DNA from: Palleronia pelagia
GTDB lineage: Bacteria; Pseudomonadota; Alphaproteobacteria; Rhodobacterales; Rhodobacteraceae
NCBI RefSeq assembly: GCF_900110115.1
Contig: NZ_FOCM01000012.1
Coordinates: 1-51,145 of the forward strand
Reading direction: 5' to 3'
DNA: 51,145 nt
Made by a program: the position numbers and the translations under genes. Within the stretch, counting starts at the first letter, position 1. The number at the start of each line of letters is the position of its first letter. Under the pieces are notes generated by a model. It saw only the letters and a program-made list of their open reading frames with translations. It was not told the DNA's origin and ran no database searches. Of the stretch, positions 36,772 through 47,334 are shown piece after piece.

Positions 36772-36802
36772 CAAACCTTCCAGCGATGGAACCTTTTTCC
36801 AG
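36772..36802 (+). promoter_or_regulatory. CueR-like operator upstream of the complex-I-like operon
   Basis: TTCCAGCGATGGAA lies at 36778-36791 behind CAAACC at the -35 position; the hexamer at the -10 position (TTCCAG) is poor. A second partial TTCCAGCG follows at 36798. The first gene starts 75 bases later. The operator match is good but the promoter elements are weak. Confidence 0.5.
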
Positions 36803-36876: not shown

Positions 36877-37212
36877 ATGCAGACGGTCATCGTGATACTC
36901 GGATGGACAGCCCTCGCGGTCCTGTTGGCGCGCGCGATGCAACCCGTCGCGGACAGCACCGCGCCGCAGGCGATGCCTTTTCTGGGCGGGGGGACGCCCG
37001 ACACCCATGCCTGGCAACGCTATCACTTCCGCCCCTATTCCATGGCCCTTCTGTTCGTCGCCTTCGAAATGGAGATGATGTTCATGTATCCATGGGCTGT
37101 GGTCTTCGTCTCCGAAGGGATCAAGGCGCTGGCCGAGATGGGCATGTTCTTGGCGATCCTGTCTGTGGGCATCCTTTATGGTTGGCGCGAAGGGATCTTC
37201 CGATGGCAATGA
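36877..37212 (+). CDS. NuoA-like subunit of a complex-I-like membrane arm
   Basis: A 111-residue three-helix protein. The core RPYSMALLFVAFEMEMMFMYPW matches the NuoA stretch around FxLVALLFVIFDLEVxFLFPW, and AEMGMFLAILSVGILYGWREG matches its last helix. The conserved Glu residues of helices 2 and 3 are kept. The loop before helix 2, which in NuoA contains YECG near the quinone tunnel, is replaced by AMPFLGGGTPDTHA, so quinone-site contacts are lost. It is the first gene of an eight-gene operon. Confidence 0.85.
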   Translation: MQTVIVILGWTALAVLLARAMQPVADSTAPQAMPFLGGGTPDTHAWQRYHFRPYSMALLFVAFEMEMMFMYPWAVVFVSEGIKALAEMGMFLAILSVGILYGWREGIFRWQ

Positions 37213-38114
37213 CTCGTCTTGCCCGTTGGGCGGCGCGGTCGCCCGCGCCCGTCTTCGCCGCCATCGGCCCCGGTCGGCAGGCCGAAACCGAGCGTCTGCT
37301 TGCCCGGCCCGGCCTGCGCCGGGCCGCGACCCCGCGCGATGCGGCGATCCTGCTGGTCGCCGGCGATCTGCCGGGCGACACGGCAGAGGCGCTGTCCCAT
37401 GTGCACGACCAGCTTCCCCATCCGCGGGCCACGCTGCGGTGGCAGGCGGATGCCCCAGATGCCATCGCGGCGCGGATCGAAACGGCATGGCGCGATATTT
37501 GCGCGGGCGAACGGGACGAAGACGATCATCTGCCGGACGAGCCGCCGAACGCGTGGAAGGGCATCGGCCCCCACGGTCAGGGCGGCAAGGGGATGATGGG
37601 CGGCACGCCCTACGGGCGGCCCATGGCCATGACCGGCACGGACATTCGCGACGGGCTGCGACTCGACCGGTACACGGCGCGGTTCGGTCCGTTCCTGCCG
37701 ATGCTGCCGCCGGGGCTGGTGCTTCAGGTGACGCTGCAAGGGGACGTGATCTGCGACCTTGACGTGCAAGCACCACCCCTCGCCCAGGCGGCAGATGCCG
37801 ATGCGCCCGATCTCTGCGCGGCGCGGATGCTGCGGCTGCTGGGTCTGGACCGCGCCGCCCACCGCGTGATGCACGGGCAATCCGCCCGCGCGCTGTGGCT
37901 GCGGGGCGCGGTGCCGAAACGGATCGGCAGGATCGACGGCACCTCCGCACGCGACCGACTGATCGCCTGGCTGGCGGGCGACACGGTGTCGGTCGCGCCC
38001 CCCGATCTGCCCGCGCTGTTGCACGGTGCCGAATGGGCCGAGGCCATGCTGATCCTCGCGTCCCTGCCCCCATCGGCACTCATCCGTGCCGCGCGCGGCG
38101 TGGAGGCTGCATGA
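37203..38114 (+). CDS. NuoB-like/NuoD-like fusion protein without Fe-S ligands
   Basis: A 303-residue soluble protein. Residues 42-80 (ATPRDAAILLVAGDLPGD, then AEALSHVHDQLPHPRATLRW) align by eye with the NuoB core (SPRQADxMxVAGT, KMAPVxxRLYDQMPEPKWVIS), but the CC and later Cys that hold cluster N2 are absent. Residues 120-188 (GIGPHGQGGKGMMGGTPYGR, DGLRLDRY, FGPFLPMLPPGLVLQVTLQG, DVICDLDV) resemble the N-terminal beta domain of NuoD or of hydrogenase-type large subunits (GPQHP, LVLxLxGEVV). Residues 189-303 are helical and less clear. It appears to be a cofactor-free adaptor that caps the membrane arm. GMMGG is shared with copper proteins of the island. It overlaps nuoA and nuoH at both ends. 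Confidence 0.7.
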   Translation: MAMTRLARWAARSPAPVFAAIGPGRQAETERLLARPGLRRAATPRDAAILLVAGDLPGDTAEALSHVHDQLPHPRATLRWQADAPDAIAARIETAWRDICAGERDEDDHLPDEPPNAWKGIGPHGQGGKGMMGGTPYGRPMAMTGTDIRDGLRLDRYTARFGPFLPMLPPGLVLQVTLQGDVICDLDVQAPPLAQAADADAPDLCAARMLRLLGLDRAAHRVMHGQSARALWLRGAVPKRIGRIDGTSARDRLIAWLAGDTVSVAPPDLPALLHGAEWAEAMLILASLPPSALIRAARGVEAA

Positions 38115-38971
38115 CGGCGCTTCTGACCCTCGCGGTCCTTGCGACCTTGCTCGGCGGGACGCTGTTCGCCGTCGCCCTCGACCGTGCCTATCTGCCGCTC
38201 CTCGCGCTCTTCACTCGCCAGCGGGTCGAGACCGAGGCTCCCGACCGCCTGAACCGCGATCTGGCCCCCGCCTGGTATCTGGCGCTGGCCGCCATCGGCA
38301 TCGCCGTCGTCCCCTTCGCGCCGGATCTGGCGCTGATCGACAGCCCGGTGGGCATCGTGATCTGGGGCAGTTGCGAAGCCCTGATCGTCGTCACCGTCTT
38401 CCTGCACGGCTGGTCGCCCAACGCGCCCTTTCCGCTGATCGGGGCCTATCGCTATGCCGCCATCGGGCTGCCGGTGATGCTGCCCTCGATGTTCGTGCTG
38501 ATCGCCGCCGCCCTGCCCGCCGAAAGCCTGTCGCTGGTCGCCATCGTCGACAGCCAGCGCGAGGTCTGGAACGTGATCCGCCAGCCGCTGGGCCTGCCGC
38601 TGTTCATGGTGGTTGCCCTGGCGATGACCCTGCGCGGCCCGATGGATTACGCCGACGCCGCCGATATCGCGACGGGCACATCGGCCGAAGACAGCGGCGC
38701 CGGTCGCGCCGTCTGGCAGATCGCGCGGCTGGCGATGCTGGTTTCGGTCTCGGCCATCGCCGCGACGGTGTTTCTGGGCGGCCCGCTAGGACCGGTGCTG
38801 CCCGGACCGGTCTGGCTGTGGCTGAAGACGGGCGCGCTGATGGCGCTGACCGTCTGGATCGGCAACCGCGTGGCGCGGACGACCCCCAGCCGGATGCTAA
38901 CGATCCTGTGGGTCGTGCTGCTTCCGCTGTCCTTCCTCCACCTTCTGATTTCGGGACTGATCGAGCTATGA
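38111..38971 (+). CDS. NuoH-like subunit, degenerate quinone site
   Basis: A 286-residue protein with eight helices, shorter than usual NuoH (about 325-345). Recognisable NuoH features are FLHGWSPNAPFPLIGAYRYA (GWxSNxxxxxLGALRxxA) and WNVIRQPLGLPLFMVVALAM. The family motif AETNRAPFDLPEAE, whose acidic residues line the quinone chamber, is replaced by AMTLRGPMDYADAAD. It would form the link between the adaptor and the antiporter-like subunits. Start and stop overlap both neighbours by ATGA. Confidence 0.88.
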   Translation: MTALLTLAVLATLLGGTLFAVALDRAYLPLLALFTRQRVETEAPDRLNRDLAPAWYLALAAIGIAVVPFAPDLALIDSPVGIVIWGSCEALIVVTVFLHGWSPNAPFPLIGAYRYAAIGLPVMLPSMFVLIAAALPAESLSLVAIVDSQREVWNVIRQPLGLPLFMVVALAMTLRGPMDYADAADIATGTSAEDSGAGRAVWQIARLAMLVSVSAIAATVFLGGPLGPVLPGPVWLWLKTGALMALTVWIGNRVARTTPSRMLTILWVVLLPLSFLHLLISGLIEL

Positions 38972-39573
38972 CAGACCTCATGATCGCCCTGCTCGTCGCC
39001 TTCGCCGTCTGGACCGGCTGGCGTGTGTTCCGCGTCGACAGCATGGTGCGCGCCTCCTTCGCGCTGATGCTGTCCTTCGTCGCGGTGGGCGCAATCGGCG
39101 TGCTGCTGTCGGCGCCCTATATCGGTGTGGCGACCGTGTTCATGATGGCTGTCGAAATGATGGTCATGGCGATCTTCATGGTCATGTTCATGATGAACCC
39201 CGCGGGCCTCAATCCGATGGTCATGGTCCACCAGCACCGCCTGTCCATCGGCGCCGGTCTTGTCGCGTTCTTCGGCCTGTCTGCCGCCGTGCTGCTTTCG
39301 CCGTTGCCGTCGAACCCGGTCGCCCCTGGCACCGACGTCGTCGCACAACTCGGTCACGAACTTCTCGGCCCCTCCATGCTGATCTTCGAAACCGCGGGCG
39401 TCACGCTTCTGGCCACGATGGTGGGCGCGGTCATCCTGTCGTCGCGACAGGGCCGTTTCGGATCGGCCGACGAAGGATCGCGTCCGCCGGGACTGACCGA
39501 GGGCGGCGATCCCGCAGGCCGCCAACCCGAGGGCGGCGGCGGGCACGGCCACCACCATCACGGGGGCCATTGA
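38968..39573 (+). CDS. NuoJ-like subunit with Met-rich helix and His-rich tail
   Basis: A 201-residue five-helix protein at the NuoJ position. The third helix (about 55-87) is extremely Met-rich (VFMMAVEMMVMAIFMVMFMM), about 11 Met in 29 residues, where NuoJ normally has aliphatic residues and a Tyr/Gly hinge. The C-terminus (192-201) is GHGHHHHGGH. Both features suggest copper or another soft metal at or in the membrane. Overlaps nuoH (ATGA) and nuoK (TGATG). Confidence 0.85.
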   Translation: MTDLMIALLVAFAVWTGWRVFRVDSMVRASFALMLSFVAVGAIGVLLSAPYIGVATVFMMAVEMMVMAIFMVMFMMNPAGLNPMVMVHQHRLSIGAGLVAFFGLSAAVLLSPLPSNPVAPGTDVVAQLGHELLGPSMLIFETAGVTLLATMVGAVILSSRQGRFGSADEGSRPPGLTEGGDPAGRQPEGGGGHGHHHHGGH

Positions 39574-39878
39574 TGACACTGACACTTGTTCTTCTCGGGG
39601 CCGCCGCGCTGATCGGCATCGGTCTTTACGGCGCGCTCAGCCAGCAAAGCTTCGTCATGCTGATGATGGGGCTGGAATTGATGCTGAACGGTGCGCTTCT
39701 GGCGATCATCGGCTTCTGGTCCCTGTCCCTGGGCGGCATGCCCGAAGGCCAGCTGCTGGCGATCATCGTGATGGCGGTGATGGCCGTGGAAATGGCAATC
39801 GGCTTTGCCCTGATCGTGGCCGTCTATCGCAAGCGGCAGGCTGACATGACAGAAAGCATCGGAACGCTGAGGCAATGA
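39573..39878 (+). CDS. NuoK-like subunit
   Basis: A 101-residue three-helix protein with both functionally important Glu residues of NuoK: MMGLELMLNGALLAI (helix 2) and VMAVEMAIGFALIVAVYRKR (helix 3). It is therefore likely competent for proton movement. The ATG overlaps the nuoJ stop by one base, and its stop overlaps the nuoL start. Confidence 0.92.
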   Translation: MTLTLVLLGAAALIGIGLYGALSQQSFVMLMMGLELMLNGALLAIIGFWSLSLGGMPEGQLLAIIVMAVMAVEMAIGFALIVAVYRKRQADMTESIGTLRQ

Positions 39879-41800
39879 TCTGGGCGCTGGCATATCTGCC
39901 GGTTCTGGCCGGTCTGGCGATCTGGGCCATCGGCGGCACGCGGGCGCGGCTGGCGACGCTGGGGGCCGGGGCGGCAGCCGCGACGCTGGCCCTGGCGCTC
40001 ATTTCTGGCGACCAGACAGGACGCTTCGTCTGGTCTGAGTTGCTCGTGCTACAGGCCGCCCTGCCCCCGCTGGCCCATGCCACGGCCCTCCTCGTGCCCG
40101 CGATCCTGCTGCCGATCACGCTTTACGCCGCATCGCACGAAGACGGTCGCGGCCTGCCCCGGCTCATCGGGTTGATGCTGGTCTTCACCGGCGGCATGGA
40201 ACTGGTCATCATTGCCGCCGACCTGGTGACGCTGCTGATCGGGTGGGAAATCGTCGGCGCCTGTTCCTGGGCCCTGATCGGCCACAAGTGGCGGCAGCAG
40301 GAACCGGGCCTGTCGGCCAATTTCGCCTTCGTCCTGGCCCGCACGGGGGATCTGGGTCTTTTCATCGCGCTGATGGCGACCGTCACCGCGACGGGCAGCG
40401 CCAGCTATGGGGCGCTTGGCACGCTCTACGGCTGGCCGCTGACGCTGGCGGCGTTCGGGCTGCTTCTCGCGGCGGTGTCGAAGGCCGGTCAGGTGCCGTT
40501 CGCGCCATGGCTGTTCCGCGCCATGGACGGACCGACTTCGGTATCCGCTTTGCTGCATTCAGCAACGATGGTGGCCGCGGGGGCCTATATCCTCGCACGC
40601 CTGCATCCCCAGCTTTCGGCCGCGCCCGGCTTCGGCCCGGCGGCGATGGTGATCGGACTTGCCACCGCGATCCTCGGCGGCGTCGTGGCCCTGCGCCAGA
40701 CCCACGCAAAGAAGCTTCTGGCCGGATCGACCTCGGCGCAGATGGGCCTGATGATCGCCACAATCGGCGCGGGCTTTCCGGGCGTCGCGGTGCTGCACCT
40801 GATCGTCCACGCCGCGACTAAGGCCGCGCTGTTCTGTGCCGCGGGCGTTGCCCACCGCGTCACCGACACGTTCGATCTGCGCCGGATGGGTCTGGCGCGC
40901 GCCCTGCCCGCCACCACGGCCCTGACCGTCATCGCCGCCCTGTCGCTGGCCGCCGTGCCGCCCCTGTCCGGCGGCTGGAGCAAGGAAGAAATGGTCAAGG
41001 CCCTGGAACATGCGGGGCCGTTCTGGGCCGCCGCGATCATCCTCGCGGGCGGGTTGAGCGCCGCCTACGCCACCCGCTTCGCCATCGCCGCCTTCGGGCC
41101 GGGCGAAGATCGGGATAGCACGGTCAAACGGGGCGAGCTGGCCGGGCTCGCCCTGCTGTCCGGTGCCGTGCTGGCGCTTTCGGCGCTGTGGTGGCCGCCC
41201 GTCCACGACGTTGTCGCCGCCCGGATCGGTGCGGACTTGCCCGAAGGGTCCCGCCTCGGACTTCTCGCGTCGCTTGCCGCCGTGGCGTTCGGTATCCTCG
41301 CGGGCCTACGCGCCGCGCGGTCCGATACCGAAGCCCCGGCGATGGAATGGCTGGGTCTGCCCGCGCTTTACGAACATGGCCTCATCCGGCCATTCCATGC
41401 TCTCGCGATCATGGCCGCGCGGGCGGATGACCGGGTTATTGACTTGATTCCGCGCGGCGCGGCGACCGTGGCGATATTCCTTGCCGACGGCCTGTCGCGC
41501 GCCGATGACGATACGCTGGACGGGCTCGCGCCGGGCGCGGCCGGGGCGGCGATGTCGACCGGCGGACAGATCTGGCGCGGCGCTGTCGGGACCGCGGTGC
41601 GCGCGACGTCCGGCCTTGCAGCGCTGGGTGCCGGTCTCGGCGAGCGGCTGAGCGACCTTATCCCCACCGGCAGCGGACGCATCGCGGGCATGGCGGGCGC
41701 GGACCTGCGACGGCTGCAGACCGGGCTCGCGCATCACTACTACACCATTCTCGTGGCGGGCTTCGCGTTGGCCGTGGCGCTACTGATTTTCGGAGGCTGA
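39875..41800 (+). CDS. NuoL-like antiporter-type subunit
   Basis: A 641-residue protein with about 16 helices. It keeps the NuoL/MrpA features GWEIVGACSWALIGHKW (helix 5 Glu), AVSKAGQVPFAPWLFRAMDG (helix 7 Lys), LLHSATMVAAGAYILARLHP, HAATKAALFCAAG and SGGWSKEE. The C-terminal part (about 490-641) contains the long lateral-helix region and a last membrane helix. It should form one proton channel of the complex. It overlaps nuoK by ATGA; nuoM starts 4 bases after its end. Confidence 0.94.
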   Translation: MIWALAYLPVLAGLAIWAIGGTRARLATLGAGAAAATLALALISGDQTGRFVWSELLVLQAALPPLAHATALLVPAILLPITLYAASHEDGRGLPRLIGLMLVFTGGMELVIIAADLVTLLIGWEIVGACSWALIGHKWRQQEPGLSANFAFVLARTGDLGLFIALMATVTATGSASYGALGTLYGWPLTLAAFGLLLAAVSKAGQVPFAPWLFRAMDGPTSVSALLHSATMVAAGAYILARLHPQLSAAPGFGPAAMVIGLATAILGGVVALRQTHAKKLLAGSTSAQMGLMIATIGAGFPGVAVLHLIVHAATKAALFCAAGVAHRVTDTFDLRRMGLARALPATTALTVIAALSLAAVPPLSGGWSKEEMVKALEHAGPFWAAAIILAGGLSAAYATRFAIAAFGPGEDRDSTVKRGELAGLALLSGAVLALSALWWPPVHDVVAARIGADLPEGSRLGLLASLAAVAFGILAGLRAARSDTEAPAMEWLGLPALYEHGLIRPFHALAIMAARADDRVIDLIPRGAATVAIFLADGLSRADDDTLDGLAPGAAGAAMSTGGQIWRGAVGTAVRATSGLAALGAGLGERLSDLIPTGSGRIAGMAGADLRRLQTGLAHHYYTILVAGFALAVALLIFGG

Positions 41801-41804
41801 ACCC

Positions 41805-43277
41805 GTGTTGACACTTGCCATTCTGATCCCGCTGCTGGCGTCTCTGATCCTTGCCTTCGTGCCGATCGGCGAGGTTGCATCGCGCTGGACCGCCACCGGA
41901 GCCGCCGCACTGTCGCTTGTGGCTCTGGTGATCGTCTGGGCGGGCGGCGGCGACGGCTTTCGCGCCGTGGCCGAAGTGCCGTGGATCCCGACCCTCGGGA
42001 TCGCCTGGCGCGTGGGCGTCGACGGCATGTCGCTGGGGCTGGCGCTGATGAGCGCGCTGATCTTCGTCGCCGCGACCGCCTGGCCGCTGAAGCTGCACGA
42101 TGCGCGCGCCTACTACGCCTGGATGGCGTTCCTTGCGGGCGTGTCCATCGGTCTCTTCGTCACGCTCGACCTGATCGTCTTTTACGTGTTCTTCGATCTC
42201 AGCCTTGTCGGCATGTATTTCCTCATCGGTCGCTGGGGCCATGGCGACGCGCAGCATGCGGCGCTCAAATTCTTCGTCTATACGCTCGCGGGCTCGCTGC
42301 TGATCCTGATCGGGATCATCGTGCTGGCGCTGAACATGCCGACACTGACCTTCGACATGCGCGCGATGATCGACAGCCCGCCGCTGGCCGCCGCGGGGAT
42401 GGTGCCCGGTCTGGTGTTCCTCGCCTTCGTCATCGGCTTCGGGATCAAGACGCCGGTTTTCCCGGTCCATACCTGGCTGCCGCCCGCCCATGTCAACGCG
42501 CCGGGGCCCGCCTCGGCCATCCTGGCGGGCGTGCTGCTGAAGATGGGCACCTACGGGCTGATCCGCATCCCGCTGCAGATGATGCCCGACACCTTCGCCC
42601 GCTGGGCCCTGCCGCTGGCGATCGTCGGCGTAATCTCGATCCTCTGGGGCAGCATCGTCGCCTTCGCCCAAGACAACCTGAAGCGTCGCATCGCCTACAC
42701 CTCGGTCAACCACATGGGCTACACCGTTCTGGGCATCGCGGTGGCGGGATCCGCGCTGGGGTCCGAGACCGCACGCCAGCTGGCCATGACCGGCGCGGTG
42801 GTCGAGATGATCGCCCACGGCCTGATCACGGGCGCATTGTTCCTGATCGCGGGCGCAGTCTGGCAGCGGACCGGGGATTACCACCTGCCCAATTTCGGCG
42901 GGTTGGCGGGCCCCGCCCCGCGGCTGACGGGTGCGGCCACGCTGGCGGCCTTTGCGTCGCTGGGCCTGCCGGGTCTGGCCGGTTTCGTGGCCGAGCTGCA
43001 CATCTTCCTCGGTGCCTTCGGCGTCTATCCCTGGCTGGCGGCCATCGGTCTTCTGGGTATCCTGATCACCGCCGCGCTGTTCCTGCGGATGCTGCGGCAG
43101 ATGTTCTTCGGCGACCTGCCGAAAGAACGCGCGGGTTTCACCGATCTCGACCGGACCGAAACGGCGCTTTTGGCGGGCTTACTGGTCCTTGTCGTGCTGA
43201 TCGGCGTCTGGCCCACGTGGCTGTTGTCGCTCATCGACGCCGCTTCCCTTATTCCGGCCCCCGGCGCAGGGGGCTGA
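41805..43277 (+). CDS. NuoM-like antiporter-type subunit
   Basis: A 490-residue protein with about 14 helices. Typical segments are GIKTPVFPVHTWLPPAHVNA, ASAILAGVLLKMGTYGLIRI, AYTSVNHMGYTVLGIAV and HGLITGALFLIAGAVW. The helix-5 Glu (FYVFFEAxLIPM in NuoM) is Asp here (FYVFFDLSLVGMYFLIG), a conservative change. The helix-7 Lys is kept. It starts with GTG at 41805 after 4 bases from nuoL and is followed by nuoN after one base. Confidence 0.94.
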   Translation: MLTLAILIPLLASLILAFVPIGEVASRWTATGAAALSLVALVIVWAGGGDGFRAVAEVPWIPTLGIAWRVGVDGMSLGLALMSALIFVAATAWPLKLHDARAYYAWMAFLAGVSIGLFVTLDLIVFYVFFDLSLVGMYFLIGRWGHGDAQHAALKFFVYTLAGSLLILIGIIVLALNMPTLTFDMRAMIDSPPLAAAGMVPGLVFLAFVIGFGIKTPVFPVHTWLPPAHVNAPGPASAILAGVLLKMGTYGLIRIPLQMMPDTFARWALPLAIVGVISILWGSIVAFAQDNLKRRIAYTSVNHMGYTVLGIAVAGSALGSETARQLAMTGAVVEMIAHGLITGALFLIAGAVWQRTGDYHLPNFGGLAGPAPRLTGAATLAAFASLGLPGLAGFVAELHIFLGAFGVYPWLAAIGLLGILITAALFLRMLRQMFFGDLPKERAGFTDLDRTETALLAGLLVLVVLIGVWPTWLLSLIDAASLIPAPGAGG

Positions 43278-43278
43278 C

Positions 43279-44670
43279 ATGCCCATCGGCGATCTCGCCC
43301 CGGAACTGACGGTCCTGTTGACCGCCGTTGCCGTGCTTCTGCTGGCGATGGTCCTGCCGCAGCGCCGCCACGGCTGGTGCGCCCTGCTGGCGGCGGCGGG
43401 GCTGGCCCTGTCCATGGCTCTCGCATGGGCACAGGCCGACGCGCACCGTCTGACCTTTTCGGGCACCTTCGCTTTGGACGGTGCCACGACATGGGCGCGG
43501 TTCGCCATACCCGGATTGACGATCCTTTGCGTCGGCCTCGCACCGCGCTGGTTCGCCACCGACCGCCGACACGGCGAATTCTACGCGATGCTTCTGTTCT
43601 CCACCCTTGGCGCGATGGCGATGGCCGGGGCGGCGGATCTGATGCAATTGGTGATGGGCGTGCTGCTGTCGTCGGTCACGGGATACGTTCTGGCCGCCTA
43701 TCACCGCGACTGGGCGATCTCGCTGGAAGCGGGAATGAAGTATTTCCTGGTCGGCGCATTGGCCAACGCGCTTCTGGTGATCGGCGTGGTCTTCGTGATG
43801 GGCATGGCGGGCAGCACCGATTACCGCGACCTCGCCGGCGCGATCCCGGACAATCCCGTCGCGCTTGCGGGCCTGACCCTCGTGCTGATGGGCCTGTTCT
43901 TCAAGCTGGGTGCCGTGCCCGCCCATACCTGGGTGCCGGACGTCGCCGAAGGCGCGCCCGCCCCTGCGGCCGCGTTCCTGACCGTGATCCCCAAGCTTGC
44001 CGCGGCCGTGGCGCTCTACCGCTTGGTCGCGCTGACCCCCGAAACGCAAGCCCTGCCGCTGCTTGTCGCGCTGGTGGCTGCCGCGACGATGACGGTCGGC
44101 AACCTTTGCGCGCTGTGGCAGGACGATGTACGCCGCCTTGTCGGGTGGTCGTCGATCAGCCAGACGGGCTACGCGCTGATGGCCGTCGCCGTGGCGGGCG
44201 CGGTCCCGGACGCCCTGCCCGCGCTCCTGGCTTTCATGAGCGTCTATGGCATCGCCAACCTGCTCGCCTTCGCGGCCATCGTCGAATTGCGGGGACGCAC
44301 TGCCATCGCGGACTACCGTGGTTTGATCAGAAAGCACCCCGGCCCGGCAATCGCCCTGACACTTGCCTTCCTGTCCTTCGTCGGCATCCCGCCGCTTGCC
44401 GGATTCCTGGGGAAGTTCGCGTTGTTCGTGGCCACGCTCGAAGCGGGTCTGGCCTGGCTCGTCGTTGTAGCCGTCGCCAACACAATCCTTTCGCTGTTCT
44501 ACTACCTGCGTGTCATCGGGCCCGCGGTGTTTTCCCGACCCGAAGGCGCGATGGCGACGCTGGGCGGCACGGCGCGCGCCACGTTCTGGGCCCTGTTCGC
44601 GCTGCTTCTGGCCACCACATTCCTCTGGTCCCCCGTCTGGTCCGCCCTGCCCCGCGCCCTGCTGCCGTGA
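43279..44670 (+). CDS. NuoN-like antiporter-type subunit
   Basis: A 463-residue protein with about 14 helices: SLEAGMKYFLVGALANALL, FFKLGAVPAHTWVPDVAEGA, AFLTVIPKLAAAVALYRL and RLVGWSSISQTGYALMA. Both helix Lys residues are present, but the helix-5 Glu of NuoN (GLELLSLALYVL) is replaced by Leu (GVLLSSVTGYVL). One of the three proton channels may therefore be altered. It ends the operon, 30 bases from the convergent repressor gene. Homologues of Mrp-type antiporters (MrpB, E, F, G) are absent, so the order A-BD-H-J-K-L-M-N points to complex I. Confidence 0.93.
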   Translation: MPIGDLAPELTVLLTAVAVLLLAMVLPQRRHGWCALLAAAGLALSMALAWAQADAHRLTFSGTFALDGATTWARFAIPGLTILCVGLAPRWFATDRRHGEFYAMLLFSTLGAMAMAGAADLMQLVMGVLLSSVTGYVLAAYHRDWAISLEAGMKYFLVGALANALLVIGVVFVMGMAGSTDYRDLAGAIPDNPVALAGLTLVLMGLFFKLGAVPAHTWVPDVAEGAPAPAAAFLTVIPKLAAAVALYRLVALTPETQALPLLVALVAAATMTVGNLCALWQDDVRRLVGWSSISQTGYALMAVAVAGAVPDALPALLAFMSVYGIANLLAFAAIVELRGRTAIADYRGLIRKHPGPAIALTLAFLSFVGIPPLAGFLGKFALFVATLEAGLAWLVVVAVANTILSLFYYLRVIGPAVFSRPEGAMATLGGTARATFWALFALLLATTFLWSPVWSALPRALLP

Positions 44671-44700: not shown

Positions 44701-45039
44701 TCAGACGTCCGGGGGCCGCTCCTCGTCCCCCGCATCCGCGCAGTAGATTCGGTAAAGCGCGTCGATCAGATCGTGCAGGCGCGGATCGGCGATGCGGTAG
44801 AAGATGCTTTGGCTTTCGCGCCGCGTCGCGACCATGCCCGCCGCGCGAAGGCGGGCAAGGTGCTGGCTGAGCGCCGATTGGCTAAGCGCAAGCTGGCCCT
44901 GCAGCGCGCCCACCGATCGCTCGCCCTCCAACAGGTGGCACAGAACCATCAGACGGTTGGCATTCGACAACAGCGCCAGCTGCTCGGCCACGTCCGCCGC
45001 GCGCGCCTGCAGGACCGGCAGCGGCGGACGGTTCTTCAT
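44701..45039 (-). CDS. bigR: ArsR-family persulfide-responsive repressor (BigR/SqrR-like)
   Basis: A 112-residue winged-helix protein (121 if the ATG at 45066 is used). RLMVLCHLLEGERSVGALQG and ALSQSALSQHLARLRAAGMV form the ArsR DNA-binding domain; one Cys in VLCHL and one in YRIYCADAG are placed as in BigR/SqrR, which form a di- or polysulfide bond when persulfide appears. I prefer the start at 45039 because the longer start would put the operator palindrome (45051-45065) inside the coding region. It is divergent from sulfur-metabolism genes and convergent with nuoN. Confidence 0.85.
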   Translation of the reverse strand: MKNRPPLPVLQARAADVAEQLALLSNANRLMVLCHLLEGERSVGALQGQLALSQSALSQHLARLRAAGMVATRRESQSIFYRIADPRLHDLIDALYRIYCADAGDEERPPDV

Positions 45040-45049
45040 ATTATTAGAG

Positions 45050-45078
45050 TTGACTAATTTAGTCATGACTTACATATA
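45050..45078 (+). promoter_or_regulatory. Promoter and palindromic operator of the sulfide operon
   Basis: -35 TTGACT (45050-45055), 17-base spacer and -10 CATATA (45073-45078). The palindrome TGACTAATTTAGTCA (45051-45065), with 7-bp perfect arms, covers the -35 and half of the spacer, so a bound BigR-like repressor would block polymerase. Confidence 0.75.
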
Positions 45079-45124
45079 TCACGGCGTAGGTCAGATATCC
45101 ATACAGCAATCGAAAGGATCGTGG

Positions 45125-45574
45125 ATGGAACCGGTCGTCGCAACGCCCTTCACACCGTGGCTGTCGCTTTTCGGTGGCATCCTGATCGGCCTTGCCGCGG
45201 TCATGGTCATGGGTCTGTTCGGCAAGATCGCCGGGATCACCGGCATATCGAAGGGCCTGACATCGGCGGTGGCCGGCACCGGCGGGCCTGCGGATCGCGG
45301 CTGGCGGTTCGCGGTTCTGCTGGGATTGATCGCGGCCCCGCTGGCCGTGCTCCTGGCGACGGGATCCTTACCGCAGCAGACCGTGCCAATTAACCTCTGG
45401 GGCATGGCGCTGGCCGGTCTTCTGGTCGGGTTCGGCACGGCCTTCGGGTCGGGTTGCACGTCCGGGCACGGGGTCTGCGGTCTGGCGCGTCTATCGCCGC
45501 GGTCTGCGGCGGCTGTCGCCACCTTCCTCGTCGCGGCCGTCGCGACGACCACCTTCATCCGCCACGCCATCTAG
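45125..45574 (+). CDS. YeeE/YedE-family sulfur transporter half (PmpA-like)
   Basis: A 149-residue membrane protein from the ATG at 45125 behind AAGGA. It has about four helices, the central motif AFGSGCTSGHGVCGLARLSP typical of the first half of YeeE/YedE (TsuA-like) proteins, and a C-terminal helix. The Cys residues handle thiosulfate or other reduced sulfur species. It is the first gene of a unit of two transporter halves, hydrolase and rhodanese under BigR-like control. Confidence 0.9.
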   Translation: MEPVVATPFTPWLSLFGGILIGLAAVMVMGLFGKIAGITGISKGLTSAVAGTGGPADRGWRFAVLLGLIAAPLAVLLATGSLPQQTVPINLWGMALAGLLVGFGTAFGSGCTSGHGVCGLARLSPRSAAAVATFLVAAVATTTFIRHAI

Positions 45575-45585
45575 GGAGACCCGTC

Positions 45586-46020
45586 ATGCGCAACGCCATG
45601 GGCTTCGTCGCGGGTCTGATCTTCGGGATCGGGCTGATCGTGTCGGGCATGTCCGACCCGGCGAAGGTGCTGAACTTCCTGGACATATTGGGGCCGTGGG
45701 ATCCCAGCCTCGCCTTCGTGATGGGCGGCGCGTCGGTGACGGCCTTCCTGGGCTATCGTCTGGTCTGGCGTCGCGACGCGCCCGTGCTGGGTAAAACGTT
45801 CGACCTGCCGACAGGCACGACCATCGACGCGCCGCTGCTGACCGGCGCCGCGATCTTCGGTGCGGGATGGGGCTTGGGCGGCTTCTGCCCCGGTCCCGCC
45901 TGGACATCGCTGGCGATGGGGGCACCTGGCACGCTGGTGTTCCTGCCCGCGATGCTGGTCGGGATCGTGCTGGCCGATCTCGGCAAATCCGCGACCCGTC
46001 TCGCAAGCAAAGGAGCGTGA
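45586..46020 (+). CDS. YeeE/YedE-family sulfur transporter half (PmpB-like)
   Basis: A 144-residue protein from ATG 45586 with GLIFGIGLIVSGMSDPAKVL and GAAIFGAGWGLGGFCPGPAW, the motifs of the second half of YeeE/YedE. Together with the preceding gene it forms the split PmpA/PmpB pair seen next to bigR in Alphaproteobacteria. GGAG precedes the start by 8 bases. Confidence 0.9.
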   Translation: MRNAMGFVAGLIFGIGLIVSGMSDPAKVLNFLDILGPWDPSLAFVMGGASVTAFLGYRLVWRRDAPVLGKTFDLPTGTTIDAPLLTGAAIFGAGWGLGGFCPGPAWTSLAMGAPGTLVFLPAMLVGIVLADLGKSATRLASKGA

Positions 46021-46023
46021 TCC

Positions 46024-46935
46024 ATGTCCGAACTGAACGACCCCATCGTCCGCCTTTCGGCCTCAACCGGTCCCGACAGCCCCGATGTCTGGGGGATCTA
46101 CGAGCCCGATACCGGCTCGATCCAGTATATCTGCGCCGACCCGGCGACGAAGAAGGCGGTCCTGATCGACGTGGTACTGAACTTCGACCCCGCGAGCTTC
46201 GCGCTGAGCGAGCGCAGCATGGAGCAGGTGCTGGGCCTGGTCGAAAAGCATGACCTGCACGTCGAATGGGTGCTCGACACCCACCCCCATGCCGACCACG
46301 TGATGGCCTCGGCGCGGCTGAAGGAGCGCATCGGCGCTCCCAACGCTATTGGTGAAAAGGTGCGCGAGATCGCAGACCTCTGGCGCGACTATTACAACAC
46401 GCCCGAGGCCTTCGATCCGGACCGCGATTTCGACCGGCTTTTCGAGGATGGCGACACGTTCCGCGTCGGCGATCTGGAGCTGCGCGTGACGCTGTCGCCG
46501 GACCACACACTGGGCTCGATCACCTATCTCTGCGGCGATGCGGCCTTCGTGCATGACACGCTGATGCAGCCCGACAGCGGCACGGCACGCGCCGACTTTC
46601 CCGGTGGCTCGGCCGACGACCTCTGGTATTCGCTACAAGACATTCTGTCCCTGCCGAAGGAGACGCGGCTGGTCGTCGGCCACGATTACGGGGCCGAAGG
46701 GCGCGACACGCCGGAATGGGAGGCCACGGTCGCCGAGCACAAGGCCCGAAACGTCCATGTCAAGGACGGCACCGACAAGCGCGACTATATCGAGAAGCGC
46801 GAGGCGCGGGACACCACGCTGGCCCTGCCCGACCGGATGCTGGCGGCATTGCAGATCAACCTGCGCGCCGGGCGGCTGCCCGAGGCCGAGAACGACGGTG
46901 CGCACTATCTCAAGATTCCGCTCAATAAGTTCTGA
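46024..46935 (+). CDS. blh: Metallo-beta-lactamase-fold persulfide dioxygenase-like hydrolase (Blh)
   Basis: A 303-residue cytosolic metal-dependent protein. Motifs in order: VLDTHPHADHVMASARL (HxHxDH metal site), SPDHTLGSITYL, AAFVHDTLMQPDSGTARADF and VVGHDYGAEGRDTPEW. The DTLMQPDSGTAR stretch is typical of the ETHE1/Blh persulfide dioxygenase group, which oxidises glutathione persulfide to sulfite. It starts 3 bases after the transporter gene and is followed by rhodanese after 12 bases. Confidence 0.93.
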   Translation: MSELNDPIVRLSASTGPDSPDVWGIYEPDTGSIQYICADPATKKAVLIDVVLNFDPASFALSERSMEQVLGLVEKHDLHVEWVLDTHPHADHVMASARLKERIGAPNAIGEKVREIADLWRDYYNTPEAFDPDRDFDRLFEDGDTFRVGDLELRVTLSPDHTLGSITYLCGDAAFVHDTLMQPDSGTARADFPGGSADDLWYSLQDILSLPKETRLVVGHDYGAEGRDTPEWEATVAEHKARNVHVKDGTDKRDYIEKREARDTTLALPDRMLAALQINLRAGRLPEAENDGAHYLKIPLNKF

Positions 46936-46947
46936 AAGGCGAAAAAT

Positions 46948-47334
46948 ATGGCAAAATCCCTGAAAGCCCTCGTGGCAGAGGCCCGGTCGCGCGTCGATGC
47001 GATCAGCCCTACGGACGCGCATAAAGCAGCGCGGGACGGCGACGTGATCCTCGACGTGCGCGAACCGGTCGAACTGGACAGCGACGGTGCCATCGCGGGC
47101 GCGATCCACATCCCCCGCGGCCTAGCCGAAGCGCAGGCCGACCCCGACACCGGCAAGGCCAACGATGCCCTGACCGCCAAACGCGGCGGCGGTGGCCGGG
47201 TCCACGTCCTGTGCGCCTCGGGCGCCCGCGCGGCGCTTGCGGCCGACAGCCTGCGACAGATGGGCTACGAGGCCACGGTGATCGAAGGCGGGCTTGAGGG
47301 CTGGAAAAAGGCGGACCTGCCGCTGAAGGACTAG
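46948..47334 (+). CDS. Rhodanese-domain sulfurtransferase
   Basis: A 128-residue single rhodanese domain: DGDVILDVREPVEL, GAIAGAIHIPRGL, the active-site loop VHVLCASGARAALAA with the catalytic Cys, and YEATVIEGGLEGWKKADLPL. It transfers sulfane sulfur to acceptors, completing the sulfide detoxification unit. Confidence 0.94.
   Translation: MAKSLKALVAEARSRVDAISPTDAHKAARDGDVILDVREPVELDSDGAIAGAIHIPRGLAEAQADPDTGKANDALTAKRGGGGRVHVLCASGARAALAADSLRQMGYEATVIEGGLEGWKKADLPLKD

Follow-up and report, generated by a model that had tools for sequence, protein, structure and literature searches.

A complex I-like arm in a copper island of Palleronia pelagia, a candidate for proton-driven copper handling

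Eight complex I-like genes in a copper island

We analyzed a 51,145-base stretch of Palleronia pelagia DNA (NZ_FOCM01000012.1; hereafter the window), which is one entire contig of a 3.85 Mb genome, with the focus on a set of complex I-like genes at 36877-44670 on the + strand. Eight closely packed genes follow one another here in the order A-BD-H-J-K-L-M-N. Seven encode relatives of the membrane subunits of complex I (NDH-1) and the second, BD, encodes a protein of 303 residues. Gene calls, Pfam and NCBIfam bore out this gene content and order, which a first-pass annotation had proposed from the sequence. That annotation had described all eight genes as overlapping; this holds for neighbors from A through L, whereas L and M are spaced by 4 bases and M and N by 1 base.

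36877..37212, + strand: NuoA-like subunit (PF00507, E 2e-22), with gained Met 65, 67 and 70
37203..38114, + strand: BD, 303 residues, apparently a degenerate NuoB-NuoD fusion, without N2 ligands
38111..38971, + strand: NuoH-like subunit (PF00146, E 4e-44); the ETNR/PFDLPE loop and an early Gly-Pro-Asn loop are lost in alignments
38968..39573, + strand: NuoJ-like subunit (PF00499, E 5e-17)
39570..39878, + strand: NuoK-like subunit (PF00420, E 3e-17), with membrane Glu retained and Met gained next to them
39875..41800, + strand: NuoL-like antiporter subunit (PF00361, E 5e-51)
41805..43277, + strand: NuoM-like antiporter subunit (TIGR01972, above cut-off)
43279..44670, + strand: NuoN-like antiporter subunit (TIGR01770, E 6e-95, slightly below cut-off), with the helix-5 Glu lost

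Pfam placed A, H, J, K and three Proton_antipo_M proteins above their cut-offs (E 5e-17 to 3e-60) and gave no match, DabA included, to BD. The best NCBIfam matches of the last three genes were L, M and N, the curated cut-off being passed by M alone. Searches of the window operon with both collections found no NuoC, E, F, G or I, as had been claimed, and no ferredoxin-like gene.

The copper-island setting proposed for the arm was also upheld: the window carries CopA, a MerR regulator, two multicopper oxidases, two DUF411 genes, DsbA and cytochromes c. The CueR-like box said to precede the arm could be located.

36775..36794, + strand: CueR-like operator-type box, 82 bases upstream of A, with 2 mismatches to the consensus that we take to be that of CueR

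At 3 mismatches or fewer to this presumed consensus, the window contains 10 such boxes compared to 1.5 expected. Boxes also lie upstream of the copy at L002 (found by script) and of the Palleronia rufa copy L003 (found by eye); L002 excepted, the script flagged none upstream of the other copies printed. The box is a candidate element for copper-dependent regulation, as read from sequence alone.

Elsewhere in the host genome, on contig C11, is a canonical nuo locus in which A, B, D, H and J to N were seen (C, E, F, G and I were not looked for). The genome also holds a second, divergent copy of the whole eight-gene arm (C11:525174-532948, L050), 1.7 kb from another multicopper oxidase. True MrpA and MrpD, above their cut-offs, occur on contig C3 (L054/L055, C3:15-19 kb and C3:32-37 kb), and in the same region a true DabA (E 2e-235) adjoins a NuoL-like gene. 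The host genome is one in which several kinds of complex I relatives stand side by side.

BD, NuoH and the methionine-rich subunits

The first-pass annotation was right that the operon has no separate NuoB or NuoD, but the 303-residue protein is itself apparently a remnant of both and not an unrelated protein. Residues 33-76 of BD match NuoB weakly in NCBIfam (E 9e-5), and a profile built from ten BD relatives matches NuoB chains in the PDB (E 1e-6).

37299..37439, + strand: NuoB-like stretch of BD, residues 33-79
37590..37631, + strand: methionine motif GMMGG.P.GR.MAM of BD, in the linker between the NuoB-like and NuoD-like parts

The Pfam family Complex1_49kDa was matched by four of five longer BD relatives tested (E 3e-7 to 3e-16); no significant match was obtained for the remaining one, L082, or for the C-terminal region of the window BD. 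An AlphaFold2 model of the window BD had a mean predicted local distance difference test score (pLDDT) of 77 and a predicted template modeling score of 0.75. Foldseek with this model returned weak matches, none below E 0.001, of which the best were NuoB-type chains followed by NuoD-type 49 kDa subunits. Sequence and model together suggest that the window BD is, most simply, a degenerate, shrunken and ligand-free NuoB-NuoD fusion or adaptor.

The NuoB-like stretch lies just ahead of what we take to be the later cluster ligands of canonical NuoB. No cysteine precedes residue 100 in the window BD and, among the 18 compact BDs to which the N2-ligand check applied (long-form BDs lay outside it), the first 97 residues contain a cysteine in L082 alone, which has one; the N2 ligand positions in NuoB are those we presume. 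Compact BDs thus do not have a NuoB with N2 cysteine ligands, a defining feature of complex I. Sequencing error as the source of the absent ligands was ruled out, since BD is conserved and ligand-free in other genomes.

NuoH has changed in the same unit. Its motifs ETNR, PFDLPE and EYS, in loops that we take to be the quinone site and the acidic loop, occur in 0 of 36 copies, compared to 14, 12 and 13 of 14 canonical sequences. Glutamates E214, E224, E226 and E249 (numbering of canonical L099) are lost in 36/36, and E236 and R156 are kept in 36/36.

These features bear on one of two readings in the first-pass annotation, that of a replacement membrane arm docking to the redox subunits of the host. 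The canonical nuo locus elsewhere in the genome would suit such an arm, but the unit supplies its own ligand-free BD adaptor, its NuoH has lost the canonical loops and motifs, and it is found as a closed unit across phyla. We judge this reading highly improbable.

They bear equally on the idea that copper redox chemistry powers ion pumping. In Marinobacter atlanticus, a nuoADHJKL cassette lies inside a copper operon and is co-expressed with it, and the authors suggest that energy is drawn from copper redox (Eddie et al. 2021, PMC8233155). Compared by description only, that cassette resembles the arm in placing complex I-like genes within copper resistance genes but, unlike the window arm, it is reported by its authors to have no nuoM/N and a short NuoL (PMC8233155). 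A published proposal and joint expression with copper genes speak for a copper-redox pump (PMC8233155). Against it, compact BDs lack the N2 ligand set, the canonical NuoH loops are gone and no electron path is visible, and we consider it improbable here.

The GMMGG.P.GR.MAM motif occurs in 18/18 compact BDs read; the linker that contains it (residues 105-145 in the window BD) is modeled with pLDDT <50. Long-form BDs (n=9) have 2-5 CPMHP motifs each, and the Pfam domain HMBD was found in three of them, all those tested (E 2.5e-44, 2.6e-28 and 1.1e-31); His-rich repeats also lie between their NuoB-like and NuoD-like halves. At the same place in the linker, actinobacterial BDs carry MDM or MSM motifs (9/9). 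Six of these are clearly His-rich, with 7 to 30 His in the first 200 residues; there are fewer in L104, L105 and L122, of which L105 and L122 are annotated as starting inside the linker. These segments of BD appear to be of metal-binding type.

The membrane subunits gained methionines, and the gain is concentrated in A, J and K, which in complex I structures make up a hub linking the quinone cavity to the antiporters. Comparison of 21 copies with 14 canonical operons from Alphaproteobacteria (13 for M and N) showed conserved Met gained at 19 of 393 columns in A+J+K against 2 of 1767 in H+L+M+N (A 3/109, J 11/185, K 5/99; H 0/273, L 0/565, M 1/473, N 1/456). Conserved Met were also lost, at one column in J, four in H, three in L and three in M. 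A further 15 plasmid loci took no part in the discovery of these sites, six of them being long-form relatives of four that did, giving 36 copies in all. The 11 Met of J and its His88 are present in 15/15 of these further loci and 36/36 overall. In the other hub subunits, A M67, A M70, K M30 and K M71 are Met in 36/36 copies, K M75 in 35/36 and A M65 in 29/36. Among 35 canonical NuoJ (the 14, plus 21 drawn from other Pseudomonadota), Met does not occur at ten of the 11 positions, and four sequences have it at the remaining one, position 84. None has His at position 88, where four have Met. Two segments of J are rich in Met or His.

39142..39231, + strand: Met-rich helix 3 and M.M.H motif of J, residues 59-88, with the gained Met and His88 in 36/36
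39532..39570, + strand: His-rich C-terminal tail of J

The tail has at least 3 His in the last 25 residues in 17/17 compact-form J, and 0-1 His in four long-form J.

Taken beside complex I, the arm shares homologous A, H, J, K, L, M and N, with BD apparently derived from NuoB and NuoD. It differs from complex I in having no C, E, F, G or I, no N2 ligands in compact BDs and no canonical NuoH loops, and in possessing Met-rich A, J and K and a metal-binding linker. In an open-licence literature search we found no report of the Met pattern or of a ligand-free, metal-binding BD. It is very likely, in our assessment, that the arm handles a metal of some kind.

Recurrence of the unit and its copper-gene neighborhood

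The eight-gene unit recurs in Alpha- and Gammaproteobacteria and in Actinomycetota, often on plasmids. BD is identical (100%) between the window and Palleronia abyssalis, and a search of 394 genomes of the family with a BD profile gave matches at E 1e-10 or lower in 6. Across 385 genomes of the class, the only listed matches to extend beyond the short NuoB-like stretch came from the window's own genome. A NuoJ profile found 10 copies in 9 of 398 Pseudomonadota genomes (191-256 bits, 4 of the 10 being rows of that profile); the next best match, at 50.9 bits, was taken as canonical NuoJ. The same 9 genomes were recovered by a profile of the BD C-terminal part, four of them weakly (E 1e-5 to 2e-6).

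Among 72,556 plasmid records, 31 match the J protein at E 0.01 or better, their hosts ranging from Roseivivax, Halomonas, Paracoccus and Sulfitobacter to Mycobacterium, Arthrobacter, Pseudonocardia, Rhodococcus and Rubrobacter. Most J genes in these records carry the label NADH-quinone oxidoreductase subunit J, a name that conceals the family. We inspected the neighborhoods of 24 of the 31, for which gene tables were incomplete. The annotated order is A-BD-H-J-K-L-M-N in 21/24; in the other three, BD contains an insertion (L114), or the unit is broken or its annotation poor (L116 and L120). With the same incomplete tables, no annotated nuoC, E, F, G or I lay nearby in any of the 24, and relatives of the arm were not found beside intact nuoB-I genes. 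A likely remnant in Xanthobacter autotrophicus Py2 (L153, pXAUT01) consists of an annotated A and the short NuoB-like start of a BD, and lies next to a rhodanese gene and to one that bears the name bilirubin oxidase. In a quick M-subunit tree, 33 copies across phyla fell into one group (Shimodaira-Hasegawa-like approximate likelihood ratio test support 96), with long branches. Its subgroups are a long form with heavy-metal-binding domains, Rubrobacter included, an actinobacterial form, and the compact form to which the window belongs.

In a neighborhood test of 14 copies from 13 genomes, 7 lay within 10 kb of a copper ATPase or multicopper oxidase compared to 0.44 expected (P 6e-8). The markers were multicopper oxidase at 27 places and copper ATPase above cut-off, at 40 of 55 places listed. 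The test ignores relatedness, uses rounded genome sizes except for the window's own, and does not include the genomes that L004-L006 come from or the split copy in G653. On plasmids, by raw count, annotation places a multicopper oxidase, CueR, a copper-resistance protein or an ATPase for copper or heavy metals in 17 of the 24 regions (L078-L081, L103-L105, L108-L112, L115, L118, L119, L121 and L122). The other reading of the first-pass annotation, a separate energy-coupled machine with a non-redox task tied to copper stress, gains from this recurrence of the unit without annotated redox genes; the link to copper is a statistical one.

Partial NDH-1 operons have been described before in another light. 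In Salinispora, a "second partial NDH-1 operon" was put forward as a marine adaptation (Penn and Jensen 2012, PMC3314556). Compared by description only, it is like the arm in comprising seven nuo membrane genes that were horizontally acquired; it is read as marine adaptation, and the word copper is absent from the text of that paper (PMC3314556). A partial NDH-1 operon of Kocuria flava is treated likewise (PMC6002675). By this account the arm might pump Na+ or H+ as a module for adaptation to the sea or to sodium, as the similar content of seven nuo genes and their place among acquired marine adaptation genes would suggest (PMC3314556, PMC6002675). However, copies lie beside copper genes on plasmids of soil and clinical actinobacteria, and long-form BDs include heavy-metal-binding domains; this account is very improbable for the arm. 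The Marinobacter, Salinispora and Kocuria operons may themselves be members of the family, which we offer as a lead. No report of such operons as one metal-linked family was found in the open-licence literature search. A further paper deals with the methylation of nuo genes during copper stress (PMC12668529).

The identity of the metal is a separate matter. Silver, mercury or zinc could be handled instead, or copper could be taken up or delivered rather than exported. The metal-binding segments are not specific to copper, an organomercurial lyase gene is found near one copy, and a pyridine-nucleotide disulfide oxidoreductase, perhaps a mercuric reductase, is encoded near L064. The neighbors are nevertheless mostly copper genes (CueR, CopA, multicopper oxidases), and we give these alternatives a slim chance.

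Other genes were seen around the copies. DUF305 proteins recur near the arm in two phyla (L066, L104, L105, L110, L115, L116 and L122). The ergothioneine genes egtB and egtD follow halomonad copies (annotated in L081; by eye in L083-L085), and a gene for a small P-II-like protein, recognized by eye, lies directly upstream of the G939 copy (L089:202-525). Downstream of the arm in the window, 44701-47334 holds a sulfide-type module of an ArsR/BigR-like regulator, Sulf_transp and DUF6691 proteins, a metallo-beta-lactamase-fold protein and a rhodanese, and a similar set follows the Curtobacterium copy. In one set of loci compared, the window's YeeE, metallo-beta-lactamase and rhodanese genes are shared by the near-identical L002 only, but four plasmid copies have rhodanese, TauE or metallo-beta-lactamase genes in their vicinity. 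Sulfide as a general task of the arm is conceivable but not supported. A transposase gene lies near the contig end (49336-50010), and Rfam had no match in window positions 30000-51145.

Energy coupling and proposed function

The antiporter subunits retain most of their charged residues. Five charged proton-path residues of NuoL, three proton-path sites of NuoM and four Lys of NuoN are kept, each in 21/21; the sites in L, M and N are those that we presume to form the proton paths. In NuoK, the first Glu motif is present in 36/36 and the second, by the pattern used, in 34/36 (L110 has Asp; L003 differs at the next residue). Most antiporter Lys and Glu persist, which suggests conserved proton-path residues of the antiporter type.

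Such subunits also occur in other complex I relatives. Mrp has in common with the arm a non-redox use of antiporter subunits. The arm, unlike Mrp, keeps NuoH, NuoA and a NuoB-NuoD adaptor; its L, M and N best match Nuo models and it does not classify as Mrp, the cut-offs of which are passed by the host's own MrpA and MrpD. DabAB, like the arm, pairs a NuoL-like subunit with a soluble metal-binding partner; the arm has seven membrane subunits instead, and its BD has no DabA match, for which the host DabA served as control (E 2e-235). Ehr and energy-converting hydrogenases presumably share NuoH, antiporter subunits and NuoB/D-like soluble proteins, and we take them to keep Fe-S small and ferredoxin-like subunits, neither of which is in this operon.

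Since the unit is mobile, travels with copper-resistance genes and bears many metal-binding residues, the arm is probably a proton-driven machine for copper handling. We infer the metal, the direction of export, the coupling to protons and the assembly of the eight proteins as follows. The eight proteins would assemble into a membrane machine derived from complex I, with metal input in place of redox input. On the cytoplasmic side BD, as a ligand-free NuoB-NuoD adaptor with a Met-rich, His-rich or heavy-metal-binding linker, would capture Cu(I). The ion would traverse the A-J-K hub, in whose helices the conserved Met were gained, and exit the cytoplasm. Proton inflow through the NuoL/M/N antiporter chain would drive this movement as Cu(I)/H+ antiport. 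Cytosolic copper would be relieved at the expense of the proton gradient and not of ATP, beside CopA and multicopper oxidase. Export is the direction suggested by the place of BD in complex I and by the lack of an evident signal peptide by eye. That the arm is specifically a proton-driven Cu(I) efflux machine we hold at close to even chances.

A copper-gated pump or valve would use many of the same parts. Copper bound to BD would switch the arm to exchange of H+ and other cations, guarding membrane potential or pH, so that copper would be a signal and not the cargo. Such gating is consistent with the retention of most presumed proton residues in the antiporter subunits, with metal segments on the soluble adaptor and with the copper-gene neighborhood; conserved Met within the membrane helices of J, K and A are not obviously needed for regulation. 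We regard gating as unlikely.

Several observations weigh against Cu(I) efflux driven by protons. In the antiporter subunits, the helix-5 Glu of NuoN is lost in 21/21 and NuoM has Asp instead of Glu in 16/20. The canonical NuoH site is lost unevenly across copies: the SYE Glu is lost in the first 21 and kept in 9/9 actinobacterial copies (L103-L106, L111, L113-L115 and L122) and, because it is kept there, part of a canonical proton or quinone path may survive in those. NuoH, moreover, has no gained conserved Met. Of the 19 gained Met, three are not conserved throughout the 15 further plasmid loci, A M65 being Met in 2/9 and K M68 in 0/9 actinobacterial copies, and K M32 in 1/6 long-form copies. 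A single Met face on J helix 3 was not significant (P 0.38). HMBD and His repeats can bind several metals. As to the neighborhood, the P values are overstated because the copies are related; 7/14 chromosomal copies have no marker within 10 kb, some of them at contig ends, and 7/24 plasmid regions have no annotated copper gene (L106, L107, L113, L114, L116, L117 and L120).

Proton-driven copper efflux by the arm would exemplify a so far unrecognized, plasmid-borne class of complex I-derived machines whose coupling partner is a metal ion in place of electrons, with Cu(I) entering by the former NuoB-NuoD/quinone region, passing through the Met-rich A-J-K hub and leaving on the proton gradient. 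We put forward this broader proposal tentatively, with its chances somewhat short of even. If it is true, bacteria would possess a proton-powered copper pump built from complex I that is carried on plasmids of two phyla and goes mostly under the name "NADH-quinone oxidoreductase". A fresh look would then be due at annotations, at metabolic models and at some of the claims of marine adaptation. The family would provide a natural test of complex I coupling, as its A-J-K hub would be driven by an ion that can be added or removed at will, and it would add one more to the uses of a complex I arm, which include redox pumping and the transport of cations or carbon.

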